Assembly: GCA_013178015.1 (NCBI GenBank)
Contig: JABLXR010000051.1
Coordinates: 1-44,318, forward strand
DNA from: Anaerolineae bacterium
GTDB taxonomy: Bacteria; Chloroflexota; Anaerolineae; DRVO01
Reading direction: 5' to 3'
Length of the DNA: 44,318 nt
This document shows, piece by piece, positions 41,828 to 44,318 of the stretch (position 1 is the first letter of the stretch; the number at the start of each line of letters is the position of its first letter). The translations under genes were made by a program, and so were the position numbers. The notes below the pieces were generated by a model. It saw only the letters and a program-made list of their open reading frames with translations, was not told the DNA's origin and searched no databases.

Positions 41828-43756
41828 CTAGAACCTACCCCTCTCCACGTGCGCCAGTAGGACAGCCACGTCCGACGGGTTGACCCCCGATAGCCGGGCC
41901 GCCTGCCCCACCGTGAGCGGCCTGACGTCGCGCAACCTCTCCCGAGCCTCCGCGCGCAGTCCTACTACCCGGCTGTAGTCGAGCCCCGAAGGCAGCCGGC
42001 GCCGCTCCAGCCGAGAGAGTCGTTCCACCTCCGCCTCCTGCCGCTCCAGGTAGCCGGCGTACTTGGCCTCGACTTCTAGCGTCTGTCTGGCCTCGTCCTC
42101 CAGCTTCTCCGGTGGCGGTGCCAGCTCCTCGATCAGGTCGTAACCTACCTCCGACCACCGCAGGAGTTGCAGCCCCGAGATTGGTTGAGAGGGAGGCTCC
42201 AAGCCCCGCCGCTCGTAGGCCCTCCGTGCCTCCTCACCGGGGACCCGCACCCGGGCCAGCCGGCCCAGTTCTTGGCGTACCTGCGTCCGCTTGCGCTCTA
42301 CCCGGTCCCGGAACCTCTCCGACACCAGCCCTAGCCGCGCAGCAGTCTCCGTCAGCCGCAAGTCGGCGTTGTCCTGGCGCAGGAGAAGCCGAAACTCGGC
42401 CCGAGAGGTGAACAACCGGTACGGCTCAGTGTGCTCCTTGGTGATCAGGTCGTCCACCATCACCCCGATGTAGGCCTGATCGCGCCGCAGCATGACCGGC
42501 TCCTCGCCTCGGACGGTGAGGGCGGCGTTAACGCCGGCCAGCCAGCCCTGCCCGGCAGCCTCCTCGTAGCCCGAGGTACCGTTGACCTGCCCAGCGAAGA
42601 ACAGCCCCCGCACCGCCCGGGCCTGCAGCGACGGGTCGAACTGGCCTGCCACCAGCACATCATACTCCACGGCGTAGCCCGGCCGGGTGACGTGTACCTC
42701 TCGCAGGGCGGGGATGGACCGCAACATCGCCTCCTGTACCGCCAGGGGCAAGGCGGTGAAGAGGCCCTGGACGTACATCTCCGCCGTGTCGTGGCCTTCA
42801 GGCTCCAGGAACACCAGATGGGAGTCCCGGTCGGGATAGCGGATGAGCTTCTCCTCGAAGGAGGGGCAGTAGCGAGGGCCGGCGCCCCGGGAGATGCCAG
42901 CGGCGATGGGGGAGAGGTGCAGGTTCTCCCGACCGATTCGATGGGTCTCCGCGTTAGTGCGAACCACGTAGCAGGGTAGCTGCGTGCGCCAGTGCGGCTG
43001 GCGCTCTATCGGGTAGATGGGGTGGATCCGTCCGGGAGCGAACGGCGGAGGCGGCGGCTCTCGGTCGTAGTAGAGCCCGAAGTACAGCGGCTCCTCCGAA
43101 CCGGGCTGGCTCTCGGTTAGGGCGAAATTCACCGTTCGGGCGTCCACCCGCGGCGGCGTGTTAGTCTGCATGCGCGTCAGCCGGAGGCCCAGGCCCTCCA
43201 GCGACGCCGAGAGCCCCGCCGCCGGTGGGTCGCCCTGCCGACCGGCCGGCATCTCCCACTCGCCGGCCACTATGCGGGCCTCCAGGAACGTGCCCGTAGT
43301 AACGATCACCGCGCGGGCTGCGAAGCGGGCCCCGTCTGCCGTGCGCACCGCGGACGCGGCCCCGCTCTCCACCTCGATGGCCACCGCCATACCCTGCCGA
43401 ACCAGAAGGCCGGGCGTCCGCTCCAGAGCCGCCTTCATCGAGGCGGGGTAGAGGGTCTTGTCGGCCTGGACTCGCAGCGCCTGCACCGCCGGCCCCTTGG
43501 AGGTGTTGAGCATACGGACCTGGATGAAGCAGCGGTCGGCGTTGTAAGGCATCTCGCCTCCCAACGCCGCCAGTTCCCGCACCAAGTGCCCCTTGGCCGG
43601 GCCCCCGATGCTGGGATTGCAGGACAGGTACCCCACCCGCTCCAGGTTGTTAGTCAGCAGGAGGGTGCGGCAGCCCATCCGGGCCGCCGCCAGGGCCGCC
43701 TCGCAGCCGGCGTGGCCCCCGCCGATGACCACGCAGTCGAAGTCCTGTTCCCTCAA
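41828..43756 (-). CDS. mnmG: tRNA uridine-5-carboxymethylaminomethyl modification enzyme MnmG (GidA)
   Basis: A 642-residue FAD-dependent enzyme that, with MnmE, installs the (carboxymethyl)aminomethyl group at U34 of certain tRNAs. The FAD motif is DCVVIGGGHAGCEAALAAARMG, then TNNLERVGYLSCNPSIGGPAKGHLVRELAALGGEM and the GidA signatures GPRYCPSFEEKLIRYPDRDSHLVFLEPEG and YVQGLFTALPLAVQEAMLRSIP. The C-terminal helical domain ends in GVNPSDVAVLLAHVERG. TTG 43756 (GGGAG 9 nt upstream) matches family starts; the frame is open to TTG 43789. A perfect 8-bp hairpin at 43789-43812 precedes it. It lies 112 nt after the selenoprotein gene, on the same strand. Confidence 0.96.
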   Translation of the reverse strand: MREQDFDCVVIGGGHAGCEAALAAARMGCRTLLLTNNLERVGYLSCNPSIGGPAKGHLVRELAALGGEMPYNADRCFIQVRMLNTSKGPAVQALRVQADKTLYPASMKAALERTPGLLVRQGMAVAIEVESGAASAVRTADGARFAARAVIVTTGTFLEARIVAGEWEMPAGRQGDPPAAGLSASLEGLGLRLTRMQTNTPPRVDARTVNFALTESQPGSEEPLYFGLYYDREPPPPPFAPGRIHPIYPIERQPHWRTQLPCYVVRTNAETHRIGRENLHLSPIAAGISRGAGPRYCPSFEEKLIRYPDRDSHLVFLEPEGHDTAEMYVQGLFTALPLAVQEAMLRSIPALREVHVTRPGYAVEYDVLVAGQFDPSLQARAVRGLFFAGQVNGTSGYEEAAGQGWLAGVNAALTVRGEEPVMLRRDQAYIGVMVDDLITKEHTEPYRLFTSRAEFRLLLRQDNADLRLTETAARLGLVSERFRDRVERKRTQVRQELGRLARVRVPGEEARRAYERRGLEPPSQPISGLQLLRWSEVGYDLIEELAPPPEKLEDEARQTLEVEAKYAGYLERQEAEVERLSRLERRRLPSGLDYSRVVGLRAEARERLRDVRPLTVGQAARLSGVNPSDVAVLLAHVERGRF

Positions 43757-43868
43757 CTGCTTCTGCTCCCTTCCGATAGGCAATGGCAAGGGTGCGACTC
43801 TCGCCGCACCCTCAACGTCTTCCTGTCGTCCCTCGAAGGGACGGATCGCACAACGAACCGCCCGGCTA

Positions 43869-44099
43869 CTACTTCACCGGCAGCGCCTGCTGAATCTCAT
43901 CCACCTTGGGGAACCTGCCCGTCTCGGCTTTAGAGAACACCTGCTGCCCGTCCACGAACACCTCGAACCGGCCGCCGCTGGACGGTTGCAGAGTGAGTTC
44001 CTGGATCCCAGTCTTGTACGCACTCAGAAGCTTCTCCGCCAAACTGACGGCTTTTGGCAGGTAGCCTCAAGCAGTGCAATACTCGATGCGGATATTCAC
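43869..44099 (-). CDS. SelW/Rdx-family selenoprotein with in-frame UGA selenocysteine codon
   Basis: GTG 44099 to TAG 43869 encodes 76 residues if the TGA at 44067-44069 is read as selenocysteine (Sec11). It begins VNIRIEYCTAUGYLPKAVSL. The second half is GIQELTLQPSSGGRFEVFVD, GQQVFSKAETGRFPKVDEIQQALPVK, matching the SelT/SelW/SelH (Rdx) family, thioredoxin-like redox proteins with a CxxU or CxxC motif; here C8-x-x-U11. AGGAGGTGA lies 7 nt upstream of the GTG, and a consensus promoter lies at 44147-44175. The other genes in the window use TGA as stop, so UGA is not recoded globally. selA/selB/selC/selD are outside the window. Confidence 0.88.
44036..44060 (-). promoter_or_regulatory. Candidate bacterial SECIS hairpin
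   Basis: Starting 6 nt after the UGA on the minus strand, CUGCCAAA pairs with UUUGGCGG (8 bp, one G-U wobble) around the 9-nt loop AGCCGUCAG. The loop has G at its second position, 16 nt from the UGA. This fits the usual bacterial pattern (short stem, G near the loop start, about 16-37 nt from UGA). Confidence 0.7.
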
Positions 44100-44146
44100 T
44101 TCTTCACCTCCTCTGGCGATCACACGGTAGTCCACGAACGCAGTGC

Positions 44147-44175
44147 ATTATAGCCCAGTCAGACCGGCCCTACAA
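44147..44175 (-). promoter_or_regulatory. Promoter of the selenoprotein gene
   Basis: Minus-strand -10 TATAAT (44147-44152) is a perfect consensus; 17 nt upstream is TTGTAG (44170-44175). The predicted start near 44140 leaves a 5' leader of about 40 nt with a strong Shine-Dalgarno. Confidence 0.75.
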
Positions 44176-44189
44176 GGCACCGGCGACAA

Positions 44190-44318
44190 CCCCAGGGCTT
44201 TCTCAAAGTCCTATGGCAAGCGACCAGAGATGCCTATCAGAGCCAGTCTGGGCGCTATCGGATGCTGCATCGCCTCTGTTCCTCGCCTGCTCGCTGGCCG
44301 GCCGTGGTTGCTGGCCAG
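44190..44318 (-). other. Right-edge stretch with no gene I can support
   Basis: The 129 nt upstream of the selenoprotein promoter hold an open minus-strand frame that ends at a stop near 44213-44215 and encodes about 35 residues (ending ALIGISGRLP). It runs off the edge, so it could be the 3' end of a further gene. Too short to judge. Confidence 0.2.

Follow-up and report, generated by a model that had tools for sequence, protein, structure and literature searches.

A UGA-containing gene upstream of mnmG in an Anaerolineae bacterium is predicted to encode a SelW-like selenoprotein

The 44,318-nucleotide stretch of Anaerolineae DNA analysed here (the window) carries on its minus strand a gene that almost certainly encodes a genuine bacterial Rdx (SelW-like) selenoprotein, in which an in-frame UGA would be read as selenocysteine (Sec) through a SECIS element just downstream (Table 1). 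The gene is a new sequence in a known selenoprotein family, and it is probably unannotated. Translation table 11 closes the frame after 10 codons, where standard gene calling would truncate it, but a preliminary description of this DNA had proposed that a hidden gene runs on through the UGA. Read directly, the frame is indeed open from a GTG (44099-44097) through the UGA at codon 11 to a TAG (43871-43869), and with UGA as Sec and GTG as M its translation is MNIRIEYCTAUGYLPKAVSLAEKLLSAYKTGIQELTLQPSSGGRFEVFVDGQQVFSKAETGRFPKVDEIQQALPVK. The finer points of that description can be read off in the same way: the GTG is preceded by a strong Shine-Dalgarno sequence, the YCTAUGY (CxxU), GGRFEVFVDG and GRFP segments are all in the translation, and the normal TAG closes a protein of 76 residues including Sec. 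Purine-rich sites resembling AGGAGGT lie upstream of most homologues. The possible promoter further upstream was picked out by eye and was not reported by the promoter scanner. The plus strand of 43869-44099 holds overlapping mechanical ORFs only, none with supporting evidence, and its translation was set aside as meaningless, the gene being on the minus strand.

Table 1. Coordinates of the selenoprotein gene, its predicted signals and its downstream neighbour in the window
Feature	Position	Strand	Basis
UGA-containing CDS, predicted 76-residue Rdx/SelW-like selenoprotein	43869..44099	-	direct reading, profiles, alignment, fold model
In-frame UGA, codon 11, second redox residue of CxxU (Cys = codon 8)	44067..44069	-	same column in 41 loci
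Shine-Dalgarno AGGAGGT, 6 nt 5' of GTG	44106..44112	-	direct reading
Possible promoter TTGTAG-N17-TATAAT (-10 perfect, -35 weak)	44147..44175	-	by eye; below scanner threshold
Predicted bacterial SECIS hairpin CCGUC-AGUUU-GGCGG	44036..44050	-	covariation; fits published bSECIS model
Strong GC-rich hairpin GAGGGUGCGGC-GAGA-GUCGCACCCUU in the interval between the selenoprotein gene and mnmG	about 43784..43813 (approximate limits)	-	hairpin also at this place in G002
mnmG (gidA), downstream neighbour, outside the selenoprotein system	41828..43789	-	TIGR00136, 723.5 bits

Family membership was examined with the protein carrying Cys in place of the residue at the UGA. The Pfam Rdx model (PF10262) matched residues 2-72, a span that includes the UGA, at 88 bits against a cut-off of 22.6 (E 4.9e-25), which is far beyond chance. 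The NCBIfam model NF041051 (SelT/SelW/SelH family (seleno)protein) gave 91.9 bits (cut-off 88, E 2.2e-26) and TIGR02174 (CXXU_selWTH) 72.1 bits (cut-off 34.2), and with all three models above their cut-offs the SelT/SelW/SelH type assigned to the protein earlier is upheld. Both the Cys and the Sec column of the CxxU motif are invariant among 40 aligned sequences. An AlphaFold2 model, for which the input alignment comprised 40 window and locus sequences, reached a pLDDT of 93.7 and places a strand (residues 2-8) ahead of the motif. Foldseek returned the SelW-related crystal structures 2obk, 2fa8, 2oka, 2p0g, 3dex and 2ojl as the top matches of this model (TM 0.84-0.89), with mouse SelW (2npb) at TM 0.65, and a sequence search of the PDB recovered the same SelW-related set at E values from 3.7e-13 to 3.9e-4. 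The protein is thus predicted to adopt a thioredoxin-like fold as in SelW, with a shorter C-terminus, at 76 residues against 96-107 in the 2npb, 2obk, 2fa8, 2p0g and 3dex chains. The CxxU motif together with this fold suggests selenol/thiol redox as the molecular function.

The UGA itself is conserved. In a set of 100 genomes of the class, which includes the window's own genome and was searched with two queries (the protein and the Pfam model), all 38 Rdx genes found by each query contain exactly one in-frame TGA. A scan of GTDB contigs added 12 loci outside the class, from Clostridiales, Limnochordia, Verrucomicrobia, planctomycetes, Chloroflexi, Calditrichota and Desulforadius, and the TGA falls within CxxU in every one of them. 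Where loci were read base by base (29 from the class and the 12 outside it, spanning several phyla), the UGA occupies the second redox position of CxxU in 41 of 41; the remaining nine class genes were scored by stop count alone. The preliminary description had looked to an alignment of the UGA with Cys or Sec in homologues. In the 41 loci it aligns with UGA, and their frames continue past it, with conserved codons downstream, rather than ending there. Among the 63 codons downstream of the UGA, 27 differ synonymously and 19 non-synonymously between the window gene and its nearest relative (G002, related at family level), which corresponds to dN 0.27 and dS 2.1 (NG86), the latter near saturation; the sequence beyond the UGA is under strong purifying selection. 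A genome of the same genus (G001) has neither an rdx gene nor a full mnmG, and as the full mnmG is missing there too, the absence of rdx is likely an assembly gap.

These data bear on two simpler explanations of the UGA. If it were a genuine stop codon or had arisen by a disabling mutation, the part downstream would be a decaying remnant, and the closure of the frame after 10 codons under table 11 would be just what is expected. We consider this highly improbable, given the recurrence of the UGA at one motif position in 41 loci of several phyla, the signature of strong purifying selection beyond it, a stop that is intact at the family length, and the full Sec machinery in the genome described below. 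It might otherwise be proposed that a Cys codon (TGC or TGT) became TGA through a sequencing or assembly error, for which a single base change suffices. However, TGA stands at the same position in independent assemblies, that of G002 included, which in effect excludes such an error, and a SECIS element is predicted 3' of the TGA; the probability that we attach to this explanation is negligible.

By its pattern of covariation, the hairpin that follows the UGA is predicted to be a bacterial SECIS element. Counted from the U of the UGA, nucleotides 20-34 form a 5-bp stem (C20-G34 to C24-G30), with a possible extra A-U closing pair, round the 5-nt loop AGUUU, in which the second position is G; the distance from UGA to loop is 21 nt. 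The stem is fully paired in 35 of 40 distinct sequences and the loop G is present in all 40. In a 25-sequence alignment 98.4% of cells are paired, with changes on both sides in four of the five pairs, and none of 500 shuffles scored as high as observed. When the partner is shifted by one to three columns the pairing is lost (at most 64% paired), and RNAalifold, unaided, returned the same helix along with the A-U loop-closing pair. Identical codons among gene pairs with the same residue are also commonest at the loop and flank codons (0.75, 0.80 and 0.69, against 0.24-0.66 elsewhere). In the published bSECIS model the apical loop measures 3-9 nt, the upper stem 4-16 bp and the distance from the UGA 16-37 nt, with a G within the first two bases of the loop and a minimum free energy of at most -7.5 kcal/mol (PMC13188914). 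The window hairpin agrees with this model in the size of its loop and the length of its stem, in the loop G, in the N1-G-[G/U]-N-N2 pattern and in its 21-nt spacing, and with -7.2 kcal/mol in isolation (ensemble -7.49) it lies just short of the published energy limit. In single-sequence folding its advantage over shuffles is modest (z -1.2 to -2.6). When the surrounding 41-60 nt of the window are folded, the structure of lowest energy uses a different helix (-13.7 kcal/mol for the 41-nt stretch), which was rejected as the SECIS element for its lack of covariation.

Decoding of UGA as Sec would require selA, selB, selC and selD elsewhere in the genome, as the preliminary description had pointed out, and a search of the assembly (4.57 Mb, 97 contigs, 95% complete) recovered all of them. 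The tRNA-Sec scored 76.7 bits against a cut-off of 47 and was also called by ARAGORN as tRNA-SeC with the anticodon TCA (UCA), whilst profile searches gave selA at 536 bits (cut-off 268), selB at 336 (cut-off 242) and selD at 342-348 (cut-off 125). The selB and tRNA-Sec genes, whose absence would have told against the gene, are both present. A further, partial SelB-like match at G000:C8:105808-106703 (L010, L016) covers profile positions 1-207 and holds one TGA and one TAG; it perhaps represents an elongation-factor gene that is broken or frameshifted. The selD gene (L022, 1453-2535) is itself interrupted by one in-frame UGA, in IRLTAMTRAAGUAAK (a GUxxK motif), and 3' of it lies a stable hairpin of 7 bp. 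We take this UGA to be at the catalytic Cys/Sec position of SelD. The window gene is thus not the sole candidate for a UGA-containing selenoprotein in this genome. The UxxK motif of SelD has been tabulated (PMC13188914).

A changed genetic code, with UGA reassigned to Trp or Gly (codes 4 or 25) and a residue other than Sec at this position, would also keep the frame open, as any amino acid at the UGA does. TGA nevertheless terminates 15 of the 32 long ORFs in the window, which excludes a changed code, and a reading of the UGA as Trp was rejected on the ground that UGA is a common normal stop there. The position is moreover Cys-like in the family, as judged from the HMM match, and selA, selB, selC and selD are present alongside a conserved SECIS hairpin, so that we would give reassignment next to no chance of being correct.

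On the selenoprotein reading, the ribosome would initiate at the GTG and meet the UGA at codon 11, where the SECIS hairpin just 3' of it would be bound by SelB carrying Sec-tRNA(Sec). With this complex bound, Sec would be inserted in place of termination and translation would run on to the TAG. The product would be a small protein of thioredoxin-like fold, in which the Cys8-x-x-Sec11 pair probably closes reversibly to a selenenylsulphide and acts in thiol/selenol redox transfer. Whilst the frame, the family, the machinery, the conserved UGA and the covarying hairpin can be read from the DNA, and the fold modelled from it, we infer the act of Sec insertion and, beyond it, the redox activity, its partner and its physiological role.

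The gene lies just upstream of mnmG, as had been noted, and this neighbourhood had led to a hedged suggestion of a link with 2-selenouridine. For the two genes to cooperate in a selenium-dependent modification of the tRNA wobble base, one might point to rdx being directly upstream of mnmG both here and in G002. That family-level relative is, however, the one place in which the adjacency is kept: in the other 40 homologous loci, the flanking sequence searched (up to 1.5-3 kb) contains no mnmG. The genome profile search revealed no mnmH/selU (2-selenouridine synthase) above the curated cut-off, the only match being a partial one of 21.8 bits against 219.75, and a strong hairpin lies between rdx and mnmG in the window and, in the corresponding interval, in G002 (L039, near 575-600). 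We therefore regard the suggestion as very unlikely to be right. This hairpin may act as a terminator or attenuator before mnmG, although a clear T run is missing from the window copy. On the other side of the gene, upstream of it, 44194-44318 is the start of a dispersed, MITE-like repeat, which the contig end interrupts. The repeat measures about 175 bp and has the terminal inverted repeats AGGGCTTTCTCAAAGTC...GACTTTGAGAAAGCCCT. The genome contains 36 pieces that match it, several of them at the ends of contigs, and copies lie also upstream of selD (L022) and in L023.

In the class, each of the 38 Rdx-positive genomes has a confident tRNA-Sec, selA over cut-off, or both, and none of the eight genomes with neither (G005, G018, G033, G043, G065, G073, G081 and G083) has an Rdx gene; given that 38 of the 100 genomes carry Rdx, the zero in eight is suggestive only. 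Uninterrupted Rdx forms, presumably with Cys, are present elsewhere in the phylum. It is possible, and we advance it tentatively, that the class keeps Rdx only as a selenoprotein, which would have been lost rather than converted to a Cys form where Sec decoding had gone. If this is the case, then the lack of a Cys form in the 38 genomes, together with loss in place of conversion, would make Sec essential to Rdx function in the class.

SelW-like proteins with CxxU were the most abundant selenoprotein family in the Sargasso Sea data, with 48 genes (PMC1088965), and in 2006 ten SelW-like genes were known from bacterial genomes, Cys homologues being few or absent in organisms with Sec (PMC1794560). 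A 2026 review places them under PF10262, as proteins predicted with high confidence (PMC13188914). The window gene is, then, a further member of a kind already published. It has the domain, length and CxxU position of the bacterial SELENOW-like proteins (PF10262, TIGR02174, NF041051), and the thioredoxin-like fold predicted for it, the in-frame UGA and the putative bacterial SECIS are likewise common to both; we found no architectural difference, so that it is new in sequence only. With the Sargasso Sea proteins it has the CxxU motif in common, although the lineage differs and the likeness is drawn from their description. In Epsilonproteobacteria, another lineage likened here by description, some SelW-like genes were wholly overlooked in annotation, and an apical SECIS hairpin of 5/6 bp follows the UGA by a few nucleotides, as here (PMC4607533). 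A search of the literature on SelW in Chloroflexi/Chloroflexota returned nothing specific.

The window member brings no new mechanism, but the SelW-like family as a whole stays of interest. What this analysis contributes is a small predicted selenoprotein gene, truncated by ordinary ORF calling, in a lineage with full Sec machinery, and a clean set of putative SECIS hairpins whose compensatory changes span phyla. The apparent Sec-only distribution in the class also fits the earlier idea that SelW-like proteins may originally have been Sec proteins.
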